This document shows positions 1 to 12,744 of a stretch of 12,744 nt of DNA, one piece after another (the stretch's first letter is position 1; each line of letters begins with the position of its first letter). Made by a program: the position numbers and the translations under genes. The notes under the pieces were generated by a model that was given only the letters and a program-made list of their open reading frames with translations, made no database searches and was not told the origin of the DNA. Source of the DNA: Candidatus Hydrogenedentota bacterium (lineage in GTDB: Bacteria; Hydrogenedentota; Hydrogenedentia; Hydrogenedentales; SLHB01); NCBI GenBank assembly GCA_022706165.1, contig JAKJDA010000042.1, positions 1 to 12,744 of the forward strand, read 5' to 3'.

Positions 1-1053
1 CGGAGCCGCCAATCTCTCGAACGCGGGCGATGCCTTTGCGACAAATCCGCCCGGAGCCGCATCGTCGTGGATGAGAAACAGCGCGGCGATGTCATTTTGG
101 ACAGCGAAGTCGTACGCGCGCTCCGGGCCCATCACCATGAAGGCGGTCGCGTAGCCATCGGTGAAGGCGCATTCCTGGGCGACGACGCTTGCCGAAGCGA
201 GGCGGTGCGAGATGGGCCGGCCTGTCTTGGGATCGATTTCGTGGGAGAGGCGGACGCCGTTTTCCTCGTAATAATTCCGGTAATCGCCCGACGTGGAAAT
301 GGATAGGCCGCTGAGGGAAAGAACCGTCTGGATCGCGCGCCCTTCCGCGATGGGCTTTTCAATGGCGATCTTCCAGGGCGCGTCGTCCGCGTTGAATCCG
401 CGCGTGCGCACTTCGCCGCCCACATCGACCATGTAGCGGGCAAAGCCCTGCGCCTCGAGAAGCAGGGACACTTTGTCCACGCTATACCCTATGGCGATGG
501 CCGATAGATCGCACTGAATGTCGGGCCGCGCTTTGCGGACAGTCTTCGCGGCAGGATCGAGGGTCAGCATGGCATAACCGACGCGTTCGCGCAGCGGATC
601 GAGGTCGGCGTCGGTCAGGACGCGGGTCGGCCGTTTTTGCGGCCCAAAGCCCCACGCGTTGACCAGCGGCCCCACCGTGATATCGAGCGCGCCATCGGTC
701 GCCTTGCTGATGCGCTGCGCGAACTGAATCAGGAAAAAGACGTCGTCCGAGAAAACGAAGGGCTCCGTGCTTTGCAGCCGGTTGAACGCCGACAATTCCG
801 AATCCTGCCGGTAGGTGGACATTTTTGCGTCGATGTCCCGCAAAACCGCGTCCGCGGCGGCAAAGGCGTCGCGGACAACGCGTTTTTCCGCAGGGGGCGC
901 GACGATCTTGATCGTGTATTTCGTGCCCATGGTCTGGCCGGAAACCGCATACAGATCGGGACGAAACCAACAGCCCTTCGCCGCCGCAACGGCCGCCGCC
1001 ATTACGATCGCCGCCATGGCCAAACCGGCCGCGCGCTTATGGAGCATGTTCAT
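1..1053 (-). CDS. apbE: FAD:protein FMN transferase (ApbE family), partial at left edge
   Basis: The frame is open from ATG at 1053 to the window edge (351 codons, no stop reached), so the C-terminus is missing. ApbE enzymes take FMN from FAD and attach it to a Thr of partner flavoproteins such as Nqr/Rnf subunits, outside the cytoplasmic membrane. Family motifs appear in order: MGTKYTIKI (42-50), MSTYRQDSELSAFN (78-91), DITVGPLVNAWGFGP (124-138), DLSAIAIGYSVDKV (182-195), VDVGGEVRTRG (209-219), SGDYRNYYE (255-263) followed by HEIDPKTGRPI, and the metal-binding region FTDGYATAF with Asp299 and Thr303. The N-terminus is a signal peptide (HKR, then an Ala-rich core) ending at Cys28. The preceding AAKG is a poor but possible lipobox. 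GAGAGG lies 8 nt before the ATG. It follows the GH51 stop by 29 nt on the same strand, so it is probably the last visible gene of that operon. No Nqr or Rnf substrate is in view. Confidence 0.93.
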   Translation of the reverse strand, partial: MNMLHKRAAGLAMAAIVMAAAVAAAKGCWFRPDLYAVSGQTMGTKYTIKIVAPPAEKRVVRDAFAAADAVLRDIDAKMSTYRQDSELSAFNRLQSTEPFVFSDDVFFLIQFAQRISKATDGALDITVGPLVNAWGFGPQKRPTRVLTDADLDPLRERVGYAMLTLDPAAKTVRKARPDIQCDLSAIAIGYSVDKVSLLLEAQGFARYMVDVGGEVRTRGFNADDAPWKIAIEKPIAEGRAIQTVLSLSGLSISTSGDYRNYYEENGVRLSHEIDPKTGRPISHRLASASVVAQECAFTDGYATAFMVMGPERAYDFAVQNDIAALFLIHDDAAPGGFVAKASPAFERLAAP

Positions 1054-1082
1054 GAGGATCCCTCTCGCCCTTCGATCGCCCC

Positions 1083-2573
1083 CTACGCGAGCGCGATAGT
1101 CAGCGTCGTCAAGGAACACGGAGGAAGGACGCACGTGAATCCGCCGCCGCTCGCTTCGACCTTCACGCGTTTAGGCGTCACGGTTTTAGGCGCGGCAATG
1201 GTGTTTGCATCGCGCGGAGAAGCGGAAGTCAGAACGCGACCGCTAACGGCGGCAATGCCCGCCCCGCGCAGATCGATCGGGGTTTCGATGGGTTGATCGA
1301 CGCTGGGGTTGACCACGGAGAGAAAAACCTTTTTCCCGGCAATGCTGGCGCTGGCGTTCAGCAGCGGCACGGCCTGCTTGGCATGCAATCCGACGGGATG
1401 CGCCTCGAACGTCGGCGTCTCCACCTCGCTTGTCAACAGACGCGCTCCCATATGCGGGCGCATCATGTCGTAGACGTGGTAGGTGGGGGTCAAGGCCATG
1501 CGATCCTCTTCGGTGATGGCCAAACACTGCAAGACGTTGATGGTCTGCGCGATGTTGGCCATGACAATGCGGCGGGCATGACGATGGAACAGGTTCAAGC
1601 ACGACGCCGCGAACAAAGCGTCCCGCAGGGTGTTGGGCTGTTCCAGGCCGTTGTCGACGGTCGCCTCCGGATGCCACACGCCCCATTCGTCAATGATAAG
1701 CCCCACGCGCTTGTGCGGATAAAAATACCCCAACACGTGATCGGCGCGCTCTATCTCGCGCTCGAACGTCACCAGATCGCCAAACAAGGCGTAATGCTCG
1801 GCATCGTGAAACTCGGCGCCCTTGCCGCGCGCAAAATACGCGTGCATCGCCAAATGATCAATCAGGTGGGCGTGCGGCATGGCCGCGCAAAAATCATGGT
1901 TCCATCGCATCAAAATCGGGTTGGCAAGATCCATCCCCGCCCCGGAAGCCACCAACTCGATGACGGGATCGACGGCGCGCAAATAAACGCTGAAACGAGC
2001 GAATTCCTGCGCGTACTGTTCCGGCGAAAACCCGCCGCCGCAACCCCAGTTTTCGTTGCCCACGCCCCAATGCCGCACCCCGTAAGGCGCAGGATGGCCG
2101 TTGGCGGCCCGCAACGCCGTCAGCGTCGTGTCGCCCCCGAAATTGCAATACTCGAGCCATGCGCGCGCCTCCTGGGGCGTGCCCGAACCGACATTCGCGC
2201 AAAGATACGGATCGCATCCAACGGCCCGGCAGAACCGCAGGAATTCATCGGTGCCGAATTCGTTGGGCTCGGTCTGCTGCCACCAAATGTTCATGGTCTT
2301 GGGACGCGTGTCGCGAGGACCGACGCCGTCGCGCCAATGGTAATCGTCGGCAAAACAGCCCCCCGGCCATCGCACGACCGGGGCCCGAAGCTGCTTCAAG
2401 GCCGCCAACACGTCGAGTCGAAGCCCGTTCTCGTTGGGAATGCGCGAGGCGGGACCAACCCATATGCCTTCGTAGATGCAGCGGCCTAGGTGCTCCGCGA
2501 AATGGCCGTACAGATTTGCGGCGATGGTCGCCTGGGGCAAATCGACCCAAACGCGGATGGAAGCGCGGCTCAT
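1083..2573 (-). CDS. GH51 alpha-L-arabinofuranosidase
   Basis: A 496-aa retaining glycosidase that releases terminal alpha-L-arabinofuranosyl residues from arabinan or arabinoxylan oligosaccharides. The length matches bacterial GH51 enzymes (about 500 aa) and there is no signal peptide, so it should act in the cytoplasm on imported oligosaccharides. Visible marks are FAEHLGRCIYEGIW (25-38), RWPGGCFADDYHW (68-80), the acid/base Glu174 in VGNENWG, and the nucleophile Glu296 in LIIDEWGVW. The 122-residue spacing between the two Glu is typical of GH51. A (beta/alpha)8 barrel is followed by the beta-sandwich that ends in a SLTTLTI strand. The start is ATG 2573, which forms an ATGA overlap with the stop of the upstream gene. 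The frame stays open further upstream but only as an antiframe of that gene. Substrate preference within GH51 cannot be read from sequence alone. The upstream partner of unknown function and the downstream ApbE are co-directional. Confidence 0.95.
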   Translation of the reverse strand: MSRASIRVWVDLPQATIAANLYGHFAEHLGRCIYEGIWVGPASRIPNENGLRLDVLAALKQLRAPVVRWPGGCFADDYHWRDGVGPRDTRPKTMNIWWQQTEPNEFGTDEFLRFCRAVGCDPYLCANVGSGTPQEARAWLEYCNFGGDTTLTALRAANGHPAPYGVRHWGVGNENWGCGGGFSPEQYAQEFARFSVYLRAVDPVIELVASGAGMDLANPILMRWNHDFCAAMPHAHLIDHLAMHAYFARGKGAEFHDAEHYALFGDLVTFEREIERADHVLGYFYPHKRVGLIIDEWGVWHPEATVDNGLEQPNTLRDALFAASCLNLFHRHARRIVMANIAQTINVLQCLAITEEDRMALTPTYHVYDMMRPHMGARLLTSEVETPTFEAHPVGLHAKQAVPLLNASASIAGKKVFLSVVNPSVDQPIETPIDLRGAGIAAVSGRVLTSASPRDANTIAAPKTVTPKRVKVEASGGGFTCVLPPCSLTTLTIALA

Positions 2574-3271
2574 GGCGTATGGGTTTCCTGCGGCGCGTCG
2601 TATTGACTCAGGTACGAATACACGTTGTCCCCGATGAACGAACAGAGGCTCCGGATGTTGGCGCAAGCCGCCTCGGGAGCGTCGCAAGAGAACGGATCCT
2701 GTCCGTATACCCCTTTCACCTCGACATACACCTCTTGCAGACTTTCGCGGTAGGACTCGATCACGACCGTAAGCGTTCCCTTGTGCTCCGGCGTTTCCGG
2801 CAAAACGAAACGCAGACCGCCTATCGAGACGGGACGCCCGAAATGCGGCGAAATGCGGCCTGCCTGATTGCAGGCGTGGTCCATCAGAAAGACGCGCGCG
2901 TCGGGATAATGCGTCAGGGCGAACGTCGTGCGAATCGTGGCCGTATGCGCGATGAAGCCCTGCACGCCCGCGGCTCCGGGCAGGCGCAGCGTGATCGTCC
3001 GAATTTTCTCCAAAAAATCGGAGAGCGCGATGTCGACCCATTCCTCGATAAGGACGACGCGATCCGGCAAGAACAACGCAATCGACTGCGTCCGCGCGCC
3101 GCGTTTGCTATAAAACCGGGGCGGGCCCGGCTGGCTGAAATCCGTGCTTTCGTACGCGGCCTTCGTTTGCGACAGATCAAAATACAGCCGCTGCAGCGCC
3201 GGCACCGAATACGCATGCGGCACGTGGATCAGTTCCGTTGAAAAATGAATCGGTCTGTCTTCGCGTTGCAT
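2570..3271 (-). CDS. Hypothetical protein of unknown family, first gene of GH51 operon
   Basis: A 233-aa protein I do not recognise. It has no signal peptide or transmembrane segment and looks like a soluble mixed alpha/beta protein. The motif LFLPDRVVLIEEWVDI (about 84-99) followed by a DFLEKI helix gives a strand-strand-helix pattern. This is loosely like small proteins of the sporadic TIGR04255 type, but that resemblance is weak and from memory. Several Cys (in DHACNQ, SCDAPEAACANIRSLC) cluster in the middle and C-terminal third. The start is ATG 3271 (MQREDRPIHF), with GAGGGA about 10 nt upstream. An in-frame ATG at 3322 lies inside the -35 box of the promoter, so it cannot be on the transcript. 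The gene ends in an ATGA overlap with the GH51 arabinofuranosidase, implying coupled translation and a related role. Reality of the gene is well supported by coding bias, promoter and overlap; function is unknown. Confidence 0.8.
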   Translation of the reverse strand: MQREDRPIHFSTELIHVPHAYSVPALQRLYFDLSQTKAAYESTDFSQPGPPRFYSKRGARTQSIALFLPDRVVLIEEWVDIALSDFLEKIRTITLRLPGAAGVQGFIAHTATIRTTFALTHYPDARVFLMDHACNQAGRISPHFGRPVSIGGLRFVLPETPEHKGTLTVVIESYRESLQEVYVEVKGVYGQDPFSCDAPEAACANIRSLCSFIGDNVYSYLSQYDAPQETHTP

Positions 3272-3298
3272 GAATCGCCCATCCCTCAAGAAAGACGT

Positions 3299-3327
3299 AG
3301 TATAGAAACTAGCGTTCCGCATGTAAA
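3299..3327 (-). promoter_or_regulatory. Sigma70-type promoter of the hypothetical/GH51/apbE operon
   Basis: Minus strand TTTACA (3322-3327), a 17-nt spacer, then TATACT (3299-3304): each box is one mismatch from consensus and spacing is optimal. In a GC-rich background this is conspicuous. The predicted transcript start, near 3292, leaves a leader of about 20 nt carrying GAGGGA before ATG 3271. The promoter therefore decides the start of the 233-aa gene. Confidence 0.7.
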
Positions 3328-3375
3328 GCGGCCCATCCCCGCCGGCATAACGCGCCTTCGATCGAGGCCTCAGGC

Positions 3376-3405
3376 TTGGAAGTCGTGCGCCATTTGGAGT
3401 ACATT
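3376..3405 (+). promoter_or_regulatory. Candidate promoter for the GH38 gene
   Basis: Plus strand TTGGAA (3376-3381), an 18-nt spacer, then TACATT (3400-3405). It lies 48 nt before the GH38 start in the divergent intergenic region (3328-3453). The boxes match consensus only moderately, so this is the best visible candidate, not a firm call. Confidence 0.35.
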
Positions 3406-3453
3406 TCCGGATGCGTCGCGAAGACCCGTCGGCCGCCCAAAAAAGGAAACAAC

Positions 3454-6303
3454 ATGAAAAAACAACACGGCGGAAAAAGCAAACGCATCGGACACGTCGT
3501 GTCCCACACCCACTGGGACCGCGAATGGCGCTATCCCATTTGGGAAACGCGCCTGATGCTGATCGAGTTCATGGACGAATTGATCGAGGTGCTCGAAACG
3601 GGCAAGTACCCCGGATTCCTGCTCGATGGCCAAGTCTCGCCCGTGATCGACTATCTAGACGTGCGCCCGGAAATGGCCCCGCGCATCAAGGCCCTCGTCG
3701 CGGCGGGCAAACTCCAGATTGGCCCGTGGCTCATCCTGCCCGACGAATACCCCATCGACGGCGAATCGATGATTCGCAATCTGCTATGGGGCCGGCGCCG
3801 TTGCCAGACCCTTGGCGGCGTATTCGACGTCGGCTACACATCCTTCGGATGGGGTCAGACCGCGCAACTCGCCCAAATCTACGCGGGTTTCGGCATGGAC
3901 GTCGCCATGATCGGCAAAAAGGTGAGCAAGGAGCGCGCGCCGTTCTCGGAATTCCTCTGGCGTTCCCCCGATGGCAGCGAACTCCTCACCACGCGCTTCG
4001 GCGCGCTGGGCCGCCAAAACTTCTACTTCAAGGTCCACCTCTCGGCCCTGGCAGGCACGCACCACGAAGGCCTGGGATGGCGCTACGAATGGGCGAAGGG
4101 CAGGGTCGCCTACCATCGCGCGGACGCCGAGGGCAAGGAACGCGACCATTACATGCTCGACGCGCCACAGACGTTCTGCCGGGAGATCATCACGCAGGAG
4201 ATGCTCGAGGAAACCTGGGCCACCACCGATGAAAGCCTTCTTCCCAACGACCGCCTCATGCTGAACGGGTGCGACTACACCGCCAGTCAACCCATGTTCC
4301 CGGACATGCTCCAGCGCGTGAACGAGGCCGACCAAGCCCCCGACCGCGAGTGGGTCCACACGACAATGCCGGCGTTCGTCGATCTCATGCGGCGCCAGAT
4401 CGACCGCAAGAAATTGCCGGTCGTGGACGGCGAATTGCGCGACGGCCCCGCGGCGGCATGCACGGGCAACGCGTTGCCGACGCGGCTCTATCTCAAGCGG
4501 ATCAACCGTCGCGCCCAGGACTTGCTCATCCGATTCGCGGAACCGATGAGCGCCGTGGCAGCGTTGGCGGGCGCGGAATATCCGCAGACGTTGATCACGC
4601 GCGCATGGCAATTCCTGATGGAATCGCACCCGCACGACAGCGTCAACGGCGTCACGCAGGACAAAACCGTGCTCGACGTCGAAAACCGCTTGCGGCAGGT
4701 CATCGAATTGGGCGAGGCGCTCGGCGATCGGGCCTTGCGCGAACTGACCCTGCGCACCGACATGTCCGCGTTCCGCGACGAGGACATCCTCATCACCGTC
4801 TACAACCCGACGCCGTATCCGCGCCGCGAAGTGGTCGAGGCGTGGGTAAACGTGCCCGACGACATGCCCAAGAATCCCTTCTGGCCGCCCGCGCCGGAAG
4901 GACTTCAGATGTTCGACGCAAAAGGCAAGCCCGTCTCCACACAAGCGCAAGGCCGCAGCGCCGAAGCCTATTGCGTCGCGGAATTGCACACCCGCGCGTT
5001 TCCATACAACTGCCAGCGCCATCGCGTGTTCTTTGACGCCGGCGAGGTGCCTGCGGGCGGCTACAAAATCTTCCGCGCAGGCTCGCTCGCCGAAGCGACC
5101 GAAAAGGGCATCGAACGGTCGGACTCGCTCGTGCGCACAAGCACGCTGCTCAAGACGCCGAACATCATGGAAAACGAATTCCTGCGCGTCGAGATGAACC
5201 CGAACGGCGCCTTCAACCTCACCGCGAAACGCCTGAATCGCACGTTCTCAAACTTGAACTACTTCGAGGACGCCGGCGACCTCGGCGACTATTGGATTCG
5301 CGACTATCCGACGTACAACCAAATCCACACGTCGCTGGGCTGTTCTGCGCGCATCTGGAGCGAGGAATCCGGCCCGTTGCGCGCAACGCTCGTCAGCGAA
5401 ATCACGATGCGCCTGCCAAAACGCGCAAACCGCGAACACCGCTATCGCGTCGAGGAACTCGAAGACCTCACCATCCGCACCGCCGTCACGCTGTGCGCCG
5501 GCGCAGAGCAAGTCGAAGTCAACGTCTCGTTCGACAACCGCATCGAAGACCATTACCTCCGCGCCATGTTCCCAACCGGCCTGACAAACGCCACCCACGC
5601 GGACGCCGCCGGGCACTTCATCGTCGACCGACGCCCGATCCGCCCGCAAGGACCATCGCCCGAAGCCGTTTGGTCGGACATGGGCACGTTGCCGCAAAAT
5701 AATTTCGTGGACGTCAGCGACGGCAAGACGGGACTGGCGTTCCTCAACGACAGCCTCGCCGAATACGAAGTGCTCGACAACGAAGAACGGACGATGGCGC
5801 TGGCGCTGTTGCGCGCCGTGCGCGTGTGGATCTGCACCGAGACCCGAGTCAGCGCGGACTTCCCCTCGCAGAAAGGCGCACAATGCCTTGGCCGTCACGA
5901 GATACGCTACGCGATCCGTCCGCACGCGGGCGATTGGCAAACGGCAAACATCCCGCTCGAAGCCGAACGCTTCTGCAGCGCGCTGCGCCTGGTCCAAACG
6001 CGCAAGCACAAAGGCTCCTTGCCCGCACAGCAGACTTCCCTCTTCGAAATCGACAACCGGATATTGCGTTTTGCCGCCATCAAAAAGGCGGAAGACCGCG
6101 ACACGTTTATTGTGCGCCTGTACAACCCCACCGGCAAGAAGACGAAAGGAAACCTGCGTTTCCGCGCGCCGGTGAAGAAGGCTTGGCGGACAAACCTCAA
6201 CGAGGACCGCGTGGCGCCCATCGCCGTGGCAAAGCCCGGCGTGATTCCAGTGGAAGCCGATGCATACAAAATCGTGACCATCGAGTTTTCGAACGGCTCG
6301 TAA
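3454..6303 (+). CDS. GH38 family alpha-mannosidase-like protein lacking the canonical nucleophile Asp
   Basis: A 949-aa cytoplasmic-type protein (no signal peptide) with the full GH38 layout of bacterial MngB-like enzymes: N-terminal catalytic barrel, three-helix middle domain and C-terminal beta-sandwich domains. Start ATG 3454 has AAGGA 7 nt upstream; the frame is open to 3376 but without a ribosome site. Zinc ligands His20 and Asp22 sit in SHTHWDREW (17-25). DGQ and GPW follow as in MngB. The probable acid/base is Asp274 in NGCDYTASQP, matching the NGHD site of MngB, and the fourth zinc ligand is His394 in SHPHDSVNG. The region that in MngB reads GYLPDSFG, with the nucleophile and zinc-ligand Asp, here reads GYTSFG (127-132): two residues are missing, including that Asp, while flanks (FLW..PDGSEL, QIYAGFG) align well. 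Classical alpha-mannosidase chemistry is therefore doubtful. It could be an inactive homologue or a subfamily with a displaced carboxylate (Asp125 is near). It is followed by a GT4 gene after 69 nt. Confidence 0.88.
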   Translation: MKKQHGGKSKRIGHVVSHTHWDREWRYPIWETRLMLIEFMDELIEVLETGKYPGFLLDGQVSPVIDYLDVRPEMAPRIKALVAAGKLQIGPWLILPDEYPIDGESMIRNLLWGRRRCQTLGGVFDVGYTSFGWGQTAQLAQIYAGFGMDVAMIGKKVSKERAPFSEFLWRSPDGSELLTTRFGALGRQNFYFKVHLSALAGTHHEGLGWRYEWAKGRVAYHRADAEGKERDHYMLDAPQTFCREIITQEMLEETWATTDESLLPNDRLMLNGCDYTASQPMFPDMLQRVNEADQAPDREWVHTTMPAFVDLMRRQIDRKKLPVVDGELRDGPAAACTGNALPTRLYLKRINRRAQDLLIRFAEPMSAVAALAGAEYPQTLITRAWQFLMESHPHDSVNGVTQDKTVLDVENRLRQVIELGEALGDRALRELTLRTDMSAFRDEDILITVYNPTPYPRREVVEAWVNVPDDMPKNPFWPPAPEGLQMFDAKGKPVSTQAQGRSAEAYCVAELHTRAFPYNCQRHRVFFDAGEVPAGGYKIFRAGSLAEATEKGIERSDSLVRTSTLLKTPNIMENEFLRVEMNPNGAFNLTAKRLNRTFSNLNYFEDAGDLGDYWIRDYPTYNQIHTSLGCSARIWSEESGPLRATLVSEITMRLPKRANREHRYRVEELEDLTIRTAVTLCAGAEQVEVNVSFDNRIEDHYLRAMFPTGLTNATHADAAGHFIVDRRPIRPQGPSPEAVWSDMGTLPQNNFVDVSDGKTGLAFLNDSLAEYEVLDNEERTMALALLRAVRVWICTETRVSADFPSQKGAQCLGRHEIRYAIRPHAGDWQTANIPLEAERFCSALRLVQTRKHKGSLPAQQTSLFEIDNRILRFAAIKKAEDRDTFIVRLYNPTGKKTKGNLRFRAPVKKAWRTNLNEDRVAPIAVAKPGVIPVEADAYKIVTIEFSNGS

Positions 6304-6372
6304 AAAAGTGGATCAAGTCCAGCGCGCCCGCGAACGATTTCTTGCGGACGCCATGCAACGTGCGGGGTGATC

Positions 6373-7554
6373 ATGCGCATTCTCAAAGTCATCACGTGGT
6401 TTCCGCCGGCGTATACGGGCCAAGGATATCAAGTAAAGACGCTGGTTCCCTTTCTGCAACGAGAAGGGGCGCAGGTCGTCGTGCTCACTTCCAGCGCCGC
6501 CAAAACCGACGCCCGCGAGATAATGGACGGCTTCGAGGTGCACCGGCTCCGGCGCGGACGCGGACGCATAGGCGCCATCGGCTTCGCGGCGCGCGTGTTT
6601 TTCTGGGCCTTTCGCCGGCGCAAACACTGGGACATCATCCATCTCCACGGCGCGGAATGGTCGGCGCTAGGGGGCGTGTTGGCGGCACGGGCGCTGGGCA
6701 AAAAAAGCATCGTCGTCCTCACGCTGATGGGAGCCGACGACCCGCAATCGATCAAAGCCACGCGATTAGGCCGCATGAAAATCGCCGTTCTGGGCATGGC
6801 GGACCGTTTCGTGGCGTTGTCCACCGCGCTGGTCCGCAGCGTGGAACAATCGGAATGGGACAGCGCGAAAACCGTCCAATTGCCTGAAGGCGTCGACGAA
6901 AAACGTTTCGCTCCCCTTTCCGCCGAGGAACGCCTCGCCGCCAAAACAGCGCTTTGTTCGCAATGGGGATGGGACCCCAACGCGCCCTTGGCCGTTTTCG
7001 TGGGAGCGATCATCCGGCGCAAGGGCGTGGACATCGTGGCCCAGGCATGGCCCTCAATTCTTGCCGCCGCGCCGACAGCGCGTCTCCTATTCGTGGGACC
7101 GCTGAAAGGACAGGCGGACAATCACGAATTCTCGGACACGTTCGTCGCATCGATCCGCGCACGCTTCGACCGGGAAGACCTCGCAGGAACGGCTGTGTTT
7201 ACGGACGCCGTGTCCGATCCAGAGCGTTTCTTGCGGGCGGCGGACGTTTTTGTGTTCCCGTCGCGCAACGAGGGGCTTCCCAATGCGTTGATCGAGGCCC
7301 AAACCGCCGGGGTTCCCACGGTTGTCGCCGACATGCCCGGCATCGCCTCGGACATTGTCGAAGACGGCAAAACCGGCTTCATTGTTCCCCAGGACGACCC
7401 TGCCGCCGTGGCCTCCGCCGTGACCCGCATCCTGCAAGACCCCGCCTTGGCCGCATCCATGCGCGAGGCGGCGCGCCTTCGAAGCGTTCGCGAATTCAAC
7501 ATAACCAGCGTGGCGCGGCGAACGATGGAAATGTATCGTCGGCTGCTCGACTGA
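6373..7554 (+). CDS. GT4 family glycosyltransferase (GT-B fold)
   Basis: A 393-aa retaining glycosyltransferase, predicted cytoplasmic or peripheral to the inner membrane, transferring a sugar from a nucleotide donor. The N-terminal Rossmann half starts with MRILKVITWFPPAYTGQGY, where the Pro/Gly loop is typical of the family, and continues to IIHLHGAEW (88-96). LPEGVDEKRFAP (170-181) leads into the donor domain VFVGAIIRRKGVD (208-220). The GT4 E-x7-E motif is Glu300 and Glu308 in RNEGLPNALIEA, followed by TGFIVP. ATG 6373 was chosen because GGGGTGA (6364-6370) lies just upstream; the in-frame GTG at 6367 falls inside that site. It is probably co-transcribed with the GH38 gene (69-nt gap, no terminator seen). 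The sugar and acceptor cannot be deduced. Confidence 0.92.
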   Translation: MRILKVITWFPPAYTGQGYQVKTLVPFLQREGAQVVVLTSSAAKTDAREIMDGFEVHRLRRGRGRIGAIGFAARVFFWAFRRRKHWDIIHLHGAEWSALGGVLAARALGKKSIVVLTLMGADDPQSIKATRLGRMKIAVLGMADRFVALSTALVRSVEQSEWDSAKTVQLPEGVDEKRFAPLSAEERLAAKTALCSQWGWDPNAPLAVFVGAIIRRKGVDIVAQAWPSILAAAPTARLLFVGPLKGQADNHEFSDTFVASIRARFDREDLAGTAVFTDAVSDPERFLRAADVFVFPSRNEGLPNALIEAQTAGVPTVVADMPGIASDIVEDGKTGFIVPQDDPAAVASAVTRILQDPALAASMREAARLRSVREFNITSVARRTMEMYRRLLD

Positions 7555-7555
7555 T

Positions 7556-7568
7556 TCGGCAACGCCGA
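7556..7568. terminator. Small hairpin between convergent genes
   Basis: TCGGC-AAC-GCCGA is a perfect 5-bp stem in the 28-nt gap between the GT4 stop (plus) and the methyltransferase stop (minus). There is no U-tract on either strand, so it is at best a weak bidirectional terminator. Confidence 0.25.
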
Positions 7569-7582
7569 GGCGACCGTCCGGG

Positions 7583-8425
7583 CTACATGAAATTCGAGAC
7601 CAACACCTCGCTGACGGCTCCGCGCCGGTCGGCTTTGCTGTTGATGGCGCGCGTGGCGAAGACTTCCCGGAGGGTGAATGCGCGGTAGAGTTCTTCGATA
7701 AACGGCGTTTTCGAGTTCGAAAGCAACGCCTTGACGCCGCGCCGATCGAGCTCGGCGAAAACTTCGGCAAGACGTCGCTGTTGGTCCTCGCCAAAACCGC
7801 CCTTGTCGTAACTAGTGAAAGACGCGGTCTTCGACACAGGATGATAGGGCGGATCAAAATAAACAAAATCGCCCTTCGCGGCGCGCTCGATCACGGTCTC
7901 GAACGGACGCTGCTCGATGCGAGCGTCTTTCAACGCCGCGGCCACCGCGCGCAGGTTTTCTTCGTCGCAAATCAGCGGGTTCTTATACCGGCCAAACGGC
8001 GTATTGAACAACCCCTTGCTGTTCTCGCGATAGAGTCCGTTGAAACACGTCTTGTTGAGGTAAATGACGCGCGCCGCACGCGCGATGGCATCGGACGGCA
8101 CCTCCGCGCGCATCGCGTAAAAATACGCTTCGCAATGCTTCTCCTTGTGCCCATGCAACAACGCGATGATCGCCTCGGCATTTTCCTGGACGCCCTTGTA
8201 GGCCTCGATAAGCCCCGCGTTGTTGTCGGAAAGACAAGCCTTGCGCCCCCTCATCCGCCCCAGCCGCGACAACTCGAAAAAAAGCGCGCCGCCCCCTACA
8301 AACGGCTCATGATACTTCCCGAACGCCCCAGCCGCCTCGACCGCCTTCAGCAGGTCCGGCAACAATTGCCCCTTCCCGCCAACCCATTTGAGAAAGGGCC
8401 GCGGCGTAACGGTCGGACGCCCCAT
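7583..8425 (-). CDS. D12-class adenine-N6 DNA methyltransferase (Dam/DpnII-like), methylase of a type II R-M pair
   Basis: A 280-aa enzyme that methylates adenine N6 in a specific DNA site using S-adenosylmethionine. The order of motifs is that of the alpha (D12) class: FLKWVGGKGQLLP (11-23, motif X), HEPFVGGGALFF (39-50, motif I), then YLNKTCFNGLYREN, the catalytic DPPY at 191-194, SYDKGGFGEDQQRRLA (205-220) and INSKADRRGAVSEVL (261-275). Most relatives recognise GATC, but the site is not provable from sequence. ATG 8425 fits the usual short N-terminus before FLKW. It lies 5 nt after the stop of the nuclease gene and has no clear Shine-Dalgarno of its own, suggesting re-initiation after the nuclease. 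An in-frame ATG at 8458, inside the nuclease gene, is a less likely start. Companion: the PD-(D/E)XK protein directly upstream. Confidence 0.93.
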   Translation of the reverse strand: MGRPTVTPRPFLKWVGGKGQLLPDLLKAVEAAGAFGKYHEPFVGGGALFFELSRLGRMRGRKACLSDNNAGLIEAYKGVQENAEAIIALLHGHKEKHCEAYFYAMRAEVPSDAIARAARVIYLNKTCFNGLYRENSKGLFNTPFGRYKNPLICDEENLRAVAAALKDARIEQRPFETVIERAAKGDFVYFDPPYHPVSKTASFTSYDKGGFGEDQQRRLAEVFAELDRRGVKALLSNSKTPFIEELYRAFTLREVFATRAINSKADRRGAVSEVLVSNFM

Positions 8426-8430
8426 GCGTC

Positions 8431-8820
8431 TTACAGTCCGAAGTACAGTTCGAGCCATGCTTGCAAGTCGCCCAACTCGACGGCGGATCCCGTCGAGAGT
8501 AGATACGATTCCATGTTCTGCGAAAAACCCGCGCCGCTATACACCACGATGCCGCGAATCGGCCACGCCTTGATGTCCTCGATGGTCGCCGGTATCTTCT
8601 CCTCGGCGCTGCCCGAACCGCCTTGAAACTTGCACTCGATCCCGAGACTGACGCGCGTCACGGGGTGCTTCAACACGATATCGATAAAGCGTTTCGCGCC
8701 CCAAATGCGCCGCCCCACGCCAACCTGCCGGGTCACGTTCAACCCCAAGGCCTCGCCCAACGCCGCGACGCGCGCCTCGAGGTCTTTGCCGGAATCAACA
8801 GCGACGGCTTTGCCCGGCAT
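8431..8820 (-). CDS. Small PD-(D/E)XK nuclease, predicted type II restriction endonuclease
   Basis: A 129-aa protein with a minimal PD-(D/E)XK core: helix with Glu15 (DLEARVAALGEALGL), Asp47 in KRFIDIVL, then Glu62-Cys-Lys64 in GIECKFQ. The D-x14-E-x-K spacing is normal for restriction and repair nucleases. A conserved-looking segment EEKIPATIEDI (73-83) and IVVYSGAGFSQNM follow. It is expected to cut double-stranded DNA in a Mg-dependent manner. Its position 5 nt upstream of a D12 methyltransferase makes a restriction enzyme the best reading. At this size it would probably act as a dimer and carries no separate DNA-recognition domain. ATG 8820 overlaps the stop of the GT2 gene (TGATG), and a strong GGAGGAG (8826-8832) lies 5 nt before it, within the last GT2 codons. 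The alternative, an orphan nuclease of other function, is not excluded. Confidence 0.82.
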   Translation of the reverse strand: MPGKAVAVDSGKDLEARVAALGEALGLNVTRQVGVGRRIWGAKRFIDIVLKHPVTRVSLGIECKFQGGSGSAEEKIPATIEDIKAWPIRGIVVYSGAGFSQNMESYLLSTGSAVELGDLQAWLELYFGL

Positions 8821-9638
8821 CAGGGCTCCTCCCGATTCTTGGGCGCGCGCGGCAACGCGCCGGCCCACGACAACGCGCGGTAGCGCAGGATCATCCGAAT
8901 CATCTGAAGCCCCAGAAAAAAGGCCTTCACCTTGCTGCCGGTCACGCTGGACTCCCCAACGCGCTTGCGATAGTTCACAGGCACTTCGATGAACGGGACG
9001 CCGTTGAGGATCGTCAACAGCATCAAATGCGGCCCAAACGCCGAGCCGCCCTCGGCGAACTGCGGGCGAATCTTCTCATACGCGGCGCGATGAAACAAGC
9101 GCATCGAGCAACCGACGTCCGTGAGCAGCGTGGTGTTGAACAAAAACTCCATGAGTTTGCCAACCGCCCAGTTGCCCCACTTGAGAAAGAGGCCCATGTT
9201 GGCCCCTTCCCACACGAGCTCACGCTGGGTGCGGGTGCCGAACACCACCGGAACATCATCGCAATAGGCAAGAAGCTTGATGACGTCATGACCGGAGAAC
9301 GTGCCATCGGGCTCTGCGATGATCAGGATGTCGCCAACGGCCTCCCGCAAGCCGCGCCGGATCGCGTACCCATAACCTTGGCGCGTCTCATACACAAGGC
9401 GCGCCCGAGTGGGACGGACCTCGTCGTCCGTCCCGGGGGCGGCGTTATTGTTGACGACGACAATCTCGTCAACGTGACCAGAATCGAAAAAATCTTCGAT
9501 CGCCGCCCGTATCGAATCCTTCTCGTTATACGTCGGAAAAACCACCGACACGGTTTTATCGCGCCACACGTCTCGCGCCCCAATCGACCTTGTTGGCTCT
9601 ACCAGTATGTATTGAACAACGACTCCGTAAACCAGCAT
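8820..9638 (-). CDS. GT2 family glycosyltransferase (GT-A fold)
   Basis: A 272-aa inverting glycosyltransferase, likely at the inner face of the membrane. SVVFPTYNEKDSI (31-43) begins the GT-A fold. EIVVVNNNAAPGTDDEV replaces the common DDGS loop with NNN. GYGYAIRRGL and DILIIAEPDGTF (103-114) follow; EPDG stands at the metal-binding DxD position. TDVGCSMRLF and VNYRKRVGESSVTG (acceptor-side signature) come later. The C-terminus is an amphipathic segment rather than clear transmembrane helices. The start is uncertain: ATG 9638 (used here, GGGG 6 nt upstream) overlaps the GT-C gene by 40 nt and gives a short extension before the fold. GTG 9569, 29 nt after the GT-C stop, would start directly at the fold. 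The gene lies between a GT-C membrane transferase and the R-M pair in one co-directional series, so its sugar probably feeds a lipid-linked or surface glycan. Confidence 0.9.
   Translation of the reverse strand: MLVYGVVVQYILVEPTRSIGARDVWRDKTVSVVFPTYNEKDSIRAAIEDFFDSGHVDEIVVVNNNAAPGTDDEVRPTRARLVYETRQGYGYAIRRGLREAVGDILIIAEPDGTFSGHDVIKLLAYCDDVPVVFGTRTQRELVWEGANMGLFLKWGNWAVGKLMEFLFNTTLLTDVGCSMRLFHRAAYEKIRPQFAEGGSAFGPHLMLLTILNGVPFIEVPVNYRKRVGESSVTGSKVKAFFLGLQMIRMILRYRALSWAGALPRAPKNREEP
8826..8832 (-). promoter_or_regulatory. Strong Shine-Dalgarno of the nuclease gene, inside GT2 coding sequence
   Basis: Minus strand GGAGGAG, followed by CCCTG and then the ATG at 8820. It encodes part of the Arg-Glu-Glu tail of the GT2 protein. 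It fixes the nuclease start at 8820 and indicates that nuclease translation is coupled to GT2 translation. Confidence 0.75.
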
Positions 9639-11233
9639 TGCAGCCCCAGAAAGCTGCACGCCGCCACGATCGGCCCCAGCGACCGCGCCTGCTGCGTCTT
9701 GTGATCAAGCATCTGCGCCGCCGGAATCACGAAGAATATCATGACATACATCGCGCTGCGCTCGCCCTCGCCGCGCGCAAGATACAAAAAATTCAGCGCG
9801 ACCAGCGTCAACAGAAACGTCAGGAACAGAGCCTTCGTCTGCGCTTCAGGCCTACTCCAACGGCGAAGGCACAACACCGACGTCGGGATTCCCGCAAAAT
9901 ACAACCAGCACATCGGATTCAAAATCCAATAGGTCCACGCCGGCAACCGCGGCGTCAGCGCGTCGAGGTGCGTCTGGTCTAGCCTGAACTGATCGTGGCA
10001 CGCCCGGAAACAAGCGACGACGTCGAACCCCGACCAAAAATACACGAGGGCGTGCGTGGCGAGAAACGAAGCGCCCATGACAACGGCCGTTCGGATGACC
10101 GAAAGCCGGCCCTCCGGACGCAGCATGCGCCACAGGCCGACAAATCCGAAAAAAGCCCCAACGCTTACCAACGAGAACGAAGTCAACGACATCGCGGCGT
10201 ACAACACTCCCGCGCCGCAAGCATAGCCGATGGAGGCCCGATGCATGGCGCGCCAGAACAGGAACAGCGTCGTCAACGTGAGCGGCATGAACAAAATATC
10301 CGCGCTGGTCGCCGTAAACAGCACAACCGACGGCATCAGCGCGAACAACAAACAACACGTCAACGCAACACGCCGATCGAACAAGTCACGCACCCAATAA
10401 TACAACGGAACCACGCTCAAACTGCCGACGGCCATCGTCGCCAAGGACAACCCAAGAGAACCGCGCCCCGCTACGTACGACAACAACCACAACATCGCGA
10501 TGGGACCAGGCGGATGCACCTTGGCGTGCATCGAAAGATAGGGGTGCAACGTCAGATAGTCGCGAAACAGGCCGCGAATCGACATGCCGCGCCCAATGTC
10601 GCCGATATACTCGCTGGCATGACGATCATAGGCCATTGTGATGCCGCCGATCCCGTCGCGCAACAAGGCGATCGACGCCGAAAAAACAAAAACGAAAAAT
10701 ACAATCGCGACCAGCATCCACCCCGCGGCTCGTTCGGATGGAATGCCGTCGCGCCAACCCAAGCGCTGAGCCGCCGCAATCCAGGCAATAAGCCCCCCCG
10801 AAAAAACAACCACGGCCAAAACATTCCAGCGGAACGCGGCCCACTTCGACGCCAGCGCGGCGGCAACGGTCACGCCGTTTTGCCGCGCTTCCAAAGGGAT
10901 GGCCGACGCCACGATCAGGACCGCAAACAGCCACACAGCCGCGGACGCGCCGGTCTTCCGCCAAGAGACGCGCTCTCGCGGCCAGACCCATCGCCGGACG
11001 ACAAATACGACAGCGCCCATGAGCAAAAGGGCAGCGGCGGGAACGAGGAGCGAATCAAAAACCGGACTGAGATACGCATAGAACGGCGTCGCGTTGAGGT
11101 AGATGCCTTCCACGCCGATCACCCACAACGCGGCCATGCCCAATAGATATCCGATCATGCAGCGCAAGCACAGATCAAACAATTTGCGTCCTGCGCGCGA
11201 TTCGCCGGACGGTTCTAGGATGTTGGCGGACAT
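9599..11233 (-). CDS. Polytopic GT-C-type glycosyltransferase (PMT/ArnT-like membrane protein)
   Basis: A 544-aa integral membrane protein with about a dozen hydrophobic helices (for example 22-43, 61-79, 98-113, 138-155, 171-191, 291-327, 343-370, 379-400, 468-485, 493-507). The long periplasmic-type loop near 193-244 carries AYDRHASEYIGDIGRG and ends in KVHPPGPI. This layout and the HPPG element before a helix are familiar from GT-C enzymes that use polyprenyl-phosphate sugars, but the acidic catalytic pair is not obvious, so the family assignment is by architecture. SPRL-type loop residues and RGEGERSAMY (487-496) near the end also fit such transferases. Start ATG 11233 is preferred over GTG 11257. 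No Shine-Dalgarno precedes it, and a TACAAT box 7 nt upstream hints at a leaderless transcript. It overlaps the downstream GT2 gene if that starts at 9638. Substrate and acceptor are unknown. Confidence 0.82.
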   Translation of the reverse strand: MSANILEPSGESRAGRKLFDLCLRCMIGYLLGMAALWVIGVEGIYLNATPFYAYLSPVFDSLLVPAAALLLMGAVVFVVRRWVWPRERVSWRKTGASAAVWLFAVLIVASAIPLEARQNGVTVAAALASKWAAFRWNVLAVVVFSGGLIAWIAAAQRLGWRDGIPSERAAGWMLVAIVFFVFVFSASIALLRDGIGGITMAYDRHASEYIGDIGRGMSIRGLFRDYLTLHPYLSMHAKVHPPGPIAMLWLLSYVAGRGSLGLSLATMAVGSLSVVPLYYWVRDLFDRRVALTCCLLFALMPSVVLFTATSADILFMPLTLTTLFLFWRAMHRASIGYACGAGVLYAAMSLTSFSLVSVGAFFGFVGLWRMLRPEGRLSVIRTAVVMGASFLATHALVYFWSGFDVVACFRACHDQFRLDQTHLDALTPRLPAWTYWILNPMCWLYFAGIPTSVLCLRRWSRPEAQTKALFLTFLLTLVALNFLYLARGEGERSAMYVMIFFVIPAAQMLDHKTQQARSLGPIVAACSFLGLQCWFTESLFNTYW

Positions 11234-11240
11234 GCGCGGT

Positions 11241-11269
11241 ATTGTAACGATCGCCACCCCGACGTTCTA
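11241..11269 (-). promoter_or_regulatory. Weak candidate promoter for the GT-C/GT2/R-M series
   Basis: Minus strand TACAAT (11241-11246) lies 17 nt after TAGAAC (11264-11269). The -10 is good, the -35 poor. The predicted start of transcription would be at or next to ATG 11233, giving a leaderless message, which agrees with the missing Shine-Dalgarno. Confidence 0.25.
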
Positions 11270-11296
11270 TAGAGCCATGGAGCCTGCGCCGCAATC

Positions 11297-11337
11297 AAAA
11301 AACAACCCGCGCCCGTGCTTCCCGGTCGTCTGCGCGC
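11297..11337 (-). terminator. Possible Rho-independent terminator after the HD-GYP gene
   Basis: Just after the TGA at 11339-11341 the minus strand has GCGCGC (11332-11337) able to pair with GCGCG (11308-11312), with an inner CCG/CGG pair, then GGTTGTTTTTTG (T-run 11297-11302). The stem is short and the loop imperfect. If real, it separates the regulator from the glycosyltransferase series. Confidence 0.35.
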
Positions 11338-11338
11338 C

Positions 11339-12499
11339 TCACTGCGTCTGCCGGGCGGCGCACGTCTCCAAGGAAGCAATCAGTTTTTGAAGCATCGACA
11401 GCGCCCCCGTGTCGGGAAGCTCCTTTTTGATGGCAAGGATTTTCTCCTCACGGGCGAGAAACGCGTCGACCACGTCCGGATCAAACTGAGAACCGCGCCC
11501 TTCCAACAGGATGCCGCGCGACGCCTCGTGCGAAAAAGCGTCTTTGTAGGGACGTTTCGACGACAGCGCGTCGTATACGTCGGCAAGCGCCACGATGCGC
11601 GCCGACAGGGGAATGTCCTCCTCCTTCAAGCCGGAAGGATACCCTGCGCCGTCCCATCGCTCGTGGTGAAAATACGCGATGTCACGACCCATCGCCAAGA
11701 ACGTGATCCGCCCCGCCTCTTTGTCGGCCGCCTCGAGCGTGTCGCCGCCGATGTTGGCATGGGTCTTCATGATATCGAATTCTTGCGGCGTCAACTTGCC
11801 AGGCTTCAGGAGAATGCGATCGGGAATGCCCACTTTGCCAATGTCGTGCAGGGGACTCGCATGGTACAACTCATCGATAAAAACGCTATCAAGCGCATGC
11901 CGATATTTGGGATGCGTCGAAAGCTCCACGGCGATTTCCCGGGCGTAGGCGCGCATCCTTCCCAGGTGTTCCCCGGTCTCCGGATCGCGTGATTCCGCCA
12001 GCCGGGCCAGCGAAAAGGCGGTGACGTGCTGAGAACGTTCAACCTGCTCCGTCCGCTCCCGGATGCGCGTTTCCAAGCGCTCCTGATATTCGATAAGCTG
12101 GTCTTGCATTCGCTTGACCCGAAGCGAATTGCGGATGCGCGCTTCCAGGAGTACGCTATCGAACGGCTTGACAAGCAGATCGTCGGCCCCGGCTTCAAGC
12201 GCCTTGATATTGGCCTCGTGGTCGGAAATGCCGGTTATGATAATCACCGGGATATGACGCGTGCGAAAATCACGCTTCAACCGTTCGCAGACCTGGAAAC
12301 CGTTCATTTGCGGCAACACGAGATCAAGGAGCACAATGTCCGGCAGCGAAGCCTCTATCATGGAAAGGGCCTCCTCTCCCGACAGAGCGAAGCGCACCTC
12401 AAACCCCCGATGGCCCAGGAACCCCTGCATGAGGACAAGGTTCTCTTCAGCATCATCGACAACGAGCACCACGGCGTTGGTTTCGGGTCTCATGGACAT
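11339..12499 (-). CDS. Response regulator with HD-GYP c-di-GMP phosphodiesterase domain
   Basis: A 386-aa cytoplasmic signalling protein. The receiver domain occupies about 9-125: acidic pair Asp15-Asp16, phospho-acceptor Asp59 in LLDLVLPQMNG, Thr89, and Lys111 in VKPF. A coiled-coil linker (about 127-158) follows, then an HD-GYP domain (about 159-345) with an intact metal site: His178 in GEHLGR, His218-Asp219 in SPLHDIGKVGIPD, His246 in KTHANIG, HHERWDGAGYP (277-287) and Asp306 in ALADVYDAL. All signature residues are present, so hydrolysis of cyclic di-GMP controlled by phosphorylation is expected. Its histidine kinase is not in the window. ATG 12499 has AAGGAG 6 nt upstream; ATG 12493 is a less likely alternative. 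It is read in the same direction as the glycosyltransferase series downstream, 105 nt away, with a possible terminator between. A role in switching surface polysaccharide is attractive but only inferred. Confidence 0.95.
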   Translation of the reverse strand: MSMRPETNAVVLVVDDAEENLVLMQGFLGHRGFEVRFALSGEEALSMIEASLPDIVLLDLVLPQMNGFQVCERLKRDFRTRHIPVIIITGISDHEANIKALEAGADDLLVKPFDSVLLEARIRNSLRVKRMQDQLIEYQERLETRIRERTEQVERSQHVTAFSLARLAESRDPETGEHLGRMRAYAREIAVELSTHPKYRHALDSVFIDELYHASPLHDIGKVGIPDRILLKPGKLTPQEFDIMKTHANIGGDTLEAADKEAGRITFLAMGRDIAYFHHERWDGAGYPSGLKEEDIPLSARIVALADVYDALSSKRPYKDAFSHEASRGILLEGRGSQFDPDVVDAFLAREEKILAIKKELPDTGALSMLQKLIASLETCAARQTQ

Positions 12500-12587
12500 G
12501 GCACGCTCCTTACGCTGTCAACGTTCACTACCCCGCCGACGGTATGGTCATGGCCCGCTACTTCTCCTACATGACCAAGTTTTTCAT

Positions 12588-12616
12588 TTGACGCCTTTTT
12601 CATATTACCATAAAAA
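12588..12616 (+). promoter_or_regulatory. Candidate promoter for a gene beyond the right edge
   Basis: Plus strand TTGACG (12588-12593, one mismatch), a 17-nt spacer, then TAAAAA (12611-12616). It sits in the AT-rich part of the 245-nt stretch upstream of the HD-GYP gene. A transcript from here would have a leader of about 120 nt to the end of the window. Confidence 0.4.
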
Positions 12617-12630
12617 TACGAAACCCGCAA
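12602..12630 (-). promoter_or_regulatory. Candidate promoter for the HD-GYP response regulator
   Basis: Minus strand TTGCGG (12625-12630), a 17-nt spacer, then TAATAT (12602-12607). Box matches are moderate. It would give a leader of about 95 nt before ATG 12499 and overlaps the divergent plus-strand candidate, so the two could not be occupied together. Confidence 0.35.
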
Positions 12631-12645
12631 TAACGGCAAGTTATT
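12629..12645. repeat. Inverted repeat AATAAC-GGCAA-GTTATT
   Basis: A perfect 6-bp inverted repeat with a 5-nt centre, touching the -35 box of the minus-strand promoter candidate and lying in the leader of the plus-strand one. It could be an operator. Such a short repeat can also occur by chance in AT-rich DNA. Confidence 0.4.
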
Positions 12646-12695
12646 CCCGTAAAACAAATATGAAGGTTGTCGTGTATCAAATGCGCCCCGGATCG

Positions 12696-12738
12696 GCCCG
12701 CGTTTCGCCGGGCGCCTTCCGTCCCCTTTGCCAGGAGG
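12696..12738 (+). promoter_or_regulatory. GC hairpin and strong Shine-Dalgarno upstream of an off-window gene
   Basis: GCCCG (12696-12700) pairs with CGGGC (12709-12713) to form a hairpin in the presumed leader. AGGAGG at 12733-12738 is a full Shine-Dalgarno, and the window stops 6 nt later (12744). A plus-strand start codon should therefore lie at or within a few bases of position 12745. Nothing can be said of its product. Confidence 0.55.
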
Positions 12739-12744
12739 AAAACC

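Follow-up and report, generated by a model that had tools for sequence, protein, structure and literature searches.

How can a GH38-like protein persist without the aspartate that serves GH38 enzymes as nucleophile and zinc ligand, and what might it catalyse in their place? The question is raised by P0001, encoded in a 12,744-nucleotide stretch of Candidatus Hydrogenedentota bacterium DNA (assembly GCA_022706165.1, contig JAKJDA010000042.1, positions 1 to 12,744; hereafter the window). The canonical Asp is missing from P0001, and Phe131 stands in its place. Judged from alignments and a tree, P0001 is a member of an old and widespread GH38-fold branch in which the nucleophile Asp has been swapped for Phe. 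We are confident that this clade is maintained, nucleophile-less and probably active. We tentatively favour an identity for P0001 as an inverting alpha-glycoside phosphorylase, in which phosphate would replace the enzyme nucleophile, while rating this proposal as somewhat short of probable.

The nucleophile loop of P0001 carries a substitution

P0001 carries all four GH38 Pfam domains above cut-off, and its GH38 fold is supported by an AlphaFold2 (AF2) model (predicted local distance difference test score, pLDDT, 92.9; predicted template modelling score, pTM, 0.92) and by a fold match. The start codon was picked by eye (the listed open reading frame, ORF, starts at 3376), and no signal peptide was obvious by eye. 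The draft genome that contains the window (3.48 Mb, 713 contigs) has ten PF01074 matches.

Residues were related to those of SpGH38 by counting in the 2wyh alignment and in family alignments, and the result was checked against the numbering in PMC2815779. His20, Asp22, Phe131, Lys155 and Asp274 of P0001 correspond to His13, Asp15, Asp125, Arg149 and Asp232 of SpGH38, and His394, Asp395 and Trp614 to His351, Asp352 and Tyr574. Arg187 probably falls at SpGH38 Tyr192, as we infer from the same numbering together with the FANWY motif column of Asp-type relatives. An earlier note on this DNA had reported that the Asp is missing at the GH38 nucleophile position and that His20, Asp22, His394 and Asp274 are kept. 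Both statements hold: residues 125-135 read DVGYTSFGWGQ, and all four kept residues are present at the equivalences just given.

The same note had described the motif as two residues shorter than the canonical one, with the Asp deleted. This description has to be corrected to an Asp-to-Phe substitution, as GY-TSFGWG-Q is equal in length to the canonical GY-LPDSFG-Q and the spacing from GY to QxxQ matches that of canonical GH38. Likewise, GYTSFGWGQTAQ of P0001 has the same length as the canonical GYVPDPFGHIAQ of a paralogue in the same genome (L003), next to which a second paralogue (L004) has the intermediate form GYTPFSFGHTEQ. Further intermediate forms occur in L005 and L068. Because intermediates such as that of L004 align without gaps, the motif is read as ungapped and a deletion in it is rejected; together with the equal lengths, this aligns Phe131 with the nucleophile Asp and Trp133 with Phe127, a conserved residue of SpGH38. 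In a MAFFT alignment with named genomes, the Asp column contains Phe in 60 rows, Asp in 34 and neither in three (one of them a fragment). The typical clade motif has changed from PDxFG to [S/P]F[G/S][W/Y/F]G.

The substitution defines a conserved and widespread clade

We assembled two sets of homologues, from searches that scored candidate subsets. Group A consists of the window gene and the best 120 of 2707 homologues (121 rows), and the second group of the best 120 of 4328 homologues of an Ignavibacterium gene. Of the 121 group-A rows, 120 span the site (the other is a fragment), and Phe131, Arg187 and Lys155 are each found in all of them. So constant a Phe goes far beyond chance. A check for close homologues that carry the Asp therefore found none among the covering rows of these best 120. 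In the second group, every covering row has Phe131 (119/119) and Arg187 (120/120).

A further set of named loci (the best 80 of 590) comprises 45 with Phe at position 131, 33 with Asp, and L055 and L080. We built a tree of 74 rows, hand-chosen from the named loci and local relatives, that omits two fragments (L020_2 and L009_1), a partial sequence (L006_2) and residues 120-160 and 180-240, which takes the motif columns out. The 44 Phe rows form one branch together with L055, which has Thr at 131 and keeps the Arg, and the tree requires one Asp-to-Phe change, which then persisted as the clade radiated widely. The support for this branch (96 in the Shimodaira-Hasegawa-like approximate likelihood ratio test, SH-aLRT) comes from a quick LG+G4 search assessed by SH-aLRT only, with 21 of 74 rows of odd composition and one row (L005) filling 26% of the columns. 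The nearest rows outside the clade, both weakly placed, are L080 (GYLISSFGH, with Lys for Arg187) and the Asp-type L093. L086 departs from the clade motif with Asn at 133.

By record title, Phe rows come from some 14 phyla: Hydrogenedentota, Planctomycetota, Verrucomicrobiota, Kiritimatiellota, Lentisphaerota, Bacillota, Spirochaetota, Calditrichota, Latescibacterota, Omnitrophota, Ignavibacteriota, Balneolota, Bacteroidota and Sumerlaeota; these titles mostly belong to metagenome bins, in which misbinned contigs are possible.

A local deletion, a sequencing error or a decaying gene could in principle mimic the loss of a catalytic residue, and we give this explanation practically no weight. 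The motif recurs unchanged in a 99% identical protein recorded on a contig of 221 kb from a different source, Phe131 is kept in the listed homologues, the P0001 gene has no internal stop, and pairwise ratios of nonsynonymous to synonymous substitution rates (dN/dS) among four orthologues are 0.12-0.25. Error and decay are thus rejected through the conserved clade. The earlier view of a conserved but chemically altered subfamily, not a decayed gene, is borne out by an invariant Phe clade that forms one branch under these dN/dS values.

Catalytic residues are retained and the nucleophile pocket is altered

We contrasted 44 Phe-clade with 26 Asp-clade rows, sorted by residue 131, with the two outgroup rows, L055 and L080 left out. 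His20, Asp22, Asp274 and His394 are invariant in every row that has a residue there (Table 1). According to the SpGH38 study, the nucleophile is hydrogen-bonded by the hydroxyl of Tyr192 and reportedly kept ionised by Arg149, and Tyr574 contacts O1 of swainsonine (PMC2815779). These are the positions of Arg187, Lys155 and Trp614 in P0001. Position 155 is Lys in 19, Arg in 19 and His in six of the 44 Phe-clade rows, and Arg in all 26 Asp rows. In the AF2 model, Arg187 is the second residue of a helix (186-200). On this alignment, the former carboxylate pocket is now a Phe plus, in group A, two cationic residues, because Asp has become Phe, Tyr192 has become Arg187 and Arg149 has become Lys155.

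These residues bear on the reading as a pseudoenzyme (a sugar-binding or regulatory protein with a GH38 fold and metal site that cleaves no bond), the sugar-binding form of which the earlier note had raised. The residue lost from the clade is the one mutated to obtain GH38 ligand complexes (titles of PDB entries 3czn, 3bvu and 7ufu), and a binding-only protein keeps a small share of our belief. Against it, Asp274, which a pure binder would not need, is invariant in group A, the second group and the Phe clade; new invariant residues arose together; many relatives hold several copies per genome; and clade members occur in a gene run with sugar-phosphate genes. We consider a binding-only pseudoenzyme improbable, since the conserved metal ligands, Asp274, the new Arg187 and the sugar-phosphate linkage fit it poorly.

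A retaining mechanism could also survive with a nucleophile other than Asp or Glu at this site, such as Tyr143, or with a His or Asp from a clade-specific insertion. Sialidases employ a Tyr nucleophile. Position 143 is Tyr in 43 of 44 Phe-clade rows vs Leu in 22 of 26 Asp rows, and Tyr in 118 of 119 rows of the second group. The insertion lengthens the stretch between residues 187 and 274 to 84-88 aa; in the Asp clade, this stretch has a median length of 41 aa (range 41-78). Within it, His221, Asp224 and Asp231 are new and conserved both in group A (119/120, 111/120 and 119/121) and in the second group (118/120, 118/120 and 119/120), but vary across the whole Phe clade (30, 29 and 29 of 44). 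We rate such a replaced nucleophile as very improbable.

Nor did the Phe clade reveal a clade-wide stand-in carboxylate: each column with at least 93% Asp or Glu in the Phe clade is also mostly Asp or Glu in the Asp clade. Asp125, which the earlier note had put forward as a displaced nucleophile, is rejected as not conserved (Asp in five of 120 group-A and three of 44 Phe-clade rows).

A candidate inverting phosphorylase

The pattern of loss and retention suggests that the clade has probably given up the GH38 double-displacement mechanism. The nucleophile is lost while the metal, the acid/base and the substrate-holding residues are kept in a maintained enzyme, so another nucleophile would be needed. 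The cationic pocket at the nucleophile's place and the sugar-phosphate-handling partners described below point to inorganic phosphate. A review states that an inverting phosphorylase requires a single catalytic residue, since phosphate acts in its own right (PMC8950772).

In the proposed reaction, the metal and neighbouring residues would hold the -1 sugar and Asp274 would protonate the leaving group. An anion in the cationic pocket (Arg187 at the helix start, plus Lys155) would attack the anomeric carbon directly. With inorganic phosphate as the likeliest anion, an alpha-mannoside-like substrate and phosphate would yield a beta-sugar-1-phosphate. In many relatives, a neighbouring HAD protein of the beta-phosphoglucomutase (beta-PGM)/phosphatase type may then process the sugar phosphate product.

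This HAD family was first spotted beside six group-A genes, and a hidden Markov model of it was run over the 80 named loci. We identified a HAD relative at most 2.4 kb away in 24 of 45 Phe loci and in none of 33 Asp loci (Fisher p = 5e-8, relatedness ignored). In 20 of the 24, the two genes are on the same strand within about 210 nt. The HAD gene lies upstream or downstream of the GH38-like gene and has a short form (14 loci) or a long form (10 loci). On another contig of the window's genome (C258, loci L005 and L156), a long HAD directly precedes a Phe-type GH38 gene (GYNVFSFGQ) that is incomplete in the C258 sequence examined. Among 59 relatives, the HAD and Phe-type genes tend to occur in the same genomes (30/40 vs 5/19, p = 6e-4), with Phe-type presence judged from long unbroken matches among the matches listed.

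A fold search with the HAD model does not separate phosphatase from mutase: CbbY, YniC-type phosphatases and beta-PGM were all returned, with Z scores spanning no more than about 2 units. The bPGM model scores 21-35 bits against the HADs (cut-off 189). Long HADs have weak Pfam HAD matches, some of them below cut-off. Short HADs have a conserved N-terminal extension (residues ~1-80, often with GYPAxYPV) without a Pfam match.

Other neighbours were clustered from genes within 8 kb and labelled through one representative per cluster. One Phe subgroup adds GH94 (8 loci), phosphohexomutase (7 loci) and NanE (a putative N-acetylmannosamine-6-phosphate epimerase family, 4 loci), none of which occur in Asp loci. 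The GH94 proteins of this subgroup match cellobiose and chitobiose phosphorylases. Ignavibacteria-type loci form a same-strand run, which in L058 encodes a hydantoinase-like protein, a flavin adenine dinucleotide (FAD) oxidoreductase, NanE, a second FAD oxidoreductase, phosphohexomutase, a long HAD, the GH38-like protein, GH94 and NAGPA. A cluster represented by a GH125 alpha-mannosidase is present at 10 Asp loci but at none of the Phe loci, and a cluster of binding-protein-dependent permeases is near 3 Phe and 13 Asp loci. PL8, sought in nine genomes with Phe loci, was found in one, that of L043.

The same neighbours, with the retained metal ligands and acid/base, could also accompany a hydrolase that works without an enzyme nucleophile. 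Here water, perhaps metal-bound, would attack with inversion, or the 2-acetamido group of the substrate would attack, and Arg187 and Lys155 would bind an acidic substrate group. In an alpha-linked N-acetylmannosamine (ManNAc) residue, the 2-acetamido group is trans to the leaving group. NanE in four Phe loci and a neighbouring phosphodiester glycosidase, NAGPA, in the same subgroup speak for such a hydrolase. NanE is confined to this one subgroup, the clade has no new clade-wide Asp or Glu to act as base for water, and the recurrent HAD partner is not explained by this mechanism alone. We regard it as a serious but unlikely alternative.

Several observations weigh against a phosphorylase. First, Arg187 could instead hold an acidic group on the substrate (carboxylate, sulfate or phosphate), and the insertion with its His and two Asp residues is not accounted for by the proposed mechanism. 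Second, the HAD partner may be a plain phosphatase; it seemingly lacks a counterpart of Arg49 of beta-PGM. Third, there is no such HAD near 21 of 45 Phe loci (one of these, L047, has a fragment), and a HAD of either form is found neither on the window's contig nor on five orthologue contigs of 7.7-19.5 kb. No gene order is shared between the window and these five contigs; beyond that, a single further match turned up, over 103 residues, linking the window's response-regulator gene to a gene of L122. Fourth, a GH38-type gene stands beside the HAD in only 3 of 59 HAD loci fetched from relatives of the window's genome (G024, G014 and its own C258), some of them fetched twice and with flanks of about 1.5 kb. 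Finally, the co-occurrence of HAD and Phe-type genes falls to 25/32 vs 3/7 (p = 0.08) when counted over genomes of at least 90% completeness.

The phosphorylase proposal can be widened, with still less assurance, to the clade as a whole. It may be a new family of metal-dependent glycoside phosphorylases that grew out of alpha-mannosidases via one ancestral swap (of the nucleophile Asp to Phe and its partner Tyr to Arg) from retaining hydrolase to inverting phosphorylase, releases beta-1-phosphates of mannose- or ManNAc-like sugars, is often paired with a HAD and spans at least a dozen phyla.

Two further kinds of neighbour were seen at the named loci. At L046, the Phe-type gene and the HAD gene flank a gene (10479-12863) for a 795-aa protein whose only match, to GH38N, is weak; relatives of this protein lie near four Asp-type loci, including L091, L097 and L112. 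URO-D family proteins (L046 13872-14888 and 16934-17959; L075 6679-7686) recur next to five loci, four of the Phe type and one of the Asp type.

Features of the window

Table 1. Positions of the P0001 gene and of its active-site features in the window, with conservation counts.
Feature	Position	Strand	Details
GH38-like protein P0001	3454..6303	+	949 aa
Kept metal ligands His20 and Asp22	3511..3519	+	115/115 covering group-A rows; 44/44 Phe clade; 26/26 Asp clade
Altered nucleophile loop, residues 125-135	3826..3858	+	DVGYTSFGWGQ
Phe131 codon (TTC), at the nucleophile/zinc-ligand Asp position	3844..3846	+	SpGH38 D125
Lys155, at SpGH38 R149	3916..3918	+	Lys in 120/120 group A
Arg187 codon (CGC), probably at SpGH38 Y192	4012..4014	+	Arg in 44/44 Phe clade vs Tyr in 26/26 Asp clade
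Phe-clade insertion, residues ~197-237	4042..4164	+	H221, D224 and D231 conserved in group A
Asp274, acid/base equivalent (SpGH38 D232)	4273..4275	+	121/121 group A; 120/120 second group; 44/44 Phe clade
His394 (metal ligand) and Asp395 (SpGH38 H351, D352)	4633..4638	+	121/121 group A; 43/44 Phe clade, the last a gap
Trp614, at SpGH38 Y574	5293..5295	+	Trp in 42/44 Phe clade vs Tyr in 25/26 Asp clade

Elsewhere in the window, on the reverse strand (7583-8868), a gene for a small PD-(D/E)XK nuclease (PDDEXK_11) is overlapped at its end by one for a D12-class adenine methyltransferase; the two look like a compact restriction-modification pair. A GH51-type arabinofuranosidase-like ORF (1083-3041, reverse strand) overlaps, in a different frame, a 250-aa ORF (2570-3322, reverse strand) that has no Pfam match.

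Significance and comparison with known systems

The clade offers a clean natural experiment on change of mechanism in a glycosidase, and many of its proteins are labelled alpha-mannosidase or mannosylglycerate hydrolase despite lacking the residue that defines that chemistry. If the phosphorylase proposal is true, the glycoside phosphorylases would gain a fold and probably also a product (beta-mannose-type 1-phosphates). This would be useful for glycan synthesis and would help to interpret how Hydrogenedentota, Planctomycetota, Ignavibacteria and gut Clostridia metabolise carbohydrates. In the literature searched by title and abstract, we found no description of a nucleophile-less GH38 clade or of a GH38 phosphorylase, and no paper with the terms alpha-mannoside phosphorylase or beta-mannose 1-phosphate. 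The word GH38 is absent from the phosphorylase review (PMC8950772). According to another study, the xanthan locus of gut Ruminococcaceae R.UCG13 holds two GH38 enzymes and a GH94 (PMC10881899).

P0001 is 23-28% identical to SpGH38 (PDB 2wyh and 2wyi) and to an Enterococcus faecalis protein (5kbp and 3lvt). It differs from SpGH38 in the change of the nucleophile Asp to Phe, of Tyr192 to Arg, of Arg149 to Lys and of Tyr574 to Trp, and in an insertion of ~45 residues. The bacterial structures aligned to P0001 carry the Asp, and no Phe-type member was recognised among the profile's 19 structure hits, all of which are named alpha-mannosidase or GH38.

The sole NCBIfam match of P0001 is to MngB (mannosylglycerate hydrolase, NF007331, a GH38), and some sources label Phe-clade proteins in this way. 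The Escherichia coli MngB motif (GYLPDSFG) keeps the Asp. P0001 is GH38-like by fold and sequence. We would not classify it as a GH38 alpha-mannosidase, because the defining catalytic residue is missing, or as a mannosylglycerate hydrolase, because it scores 375.1 bits against a cut-off of 1138.

The HAD partner resembles CbbY, YniC and pgmB in its fold and DxDGT motif. It differs from them in an N-terminal extension of ~80 residues, in the cap motif GHSVSEHL and in scores far below the NCBIfam cut-offs. The inverting phosphorylases of GH65, GH94, GH112, GH130, GH149, GH161 and GT108 belong to families different from the GH38-like clade. Under the phosphorylase proposal, the clade would share with them the use of one acid residue and phosphate, as well as the placement of genes beside those of sugar-phosphate enzymes.

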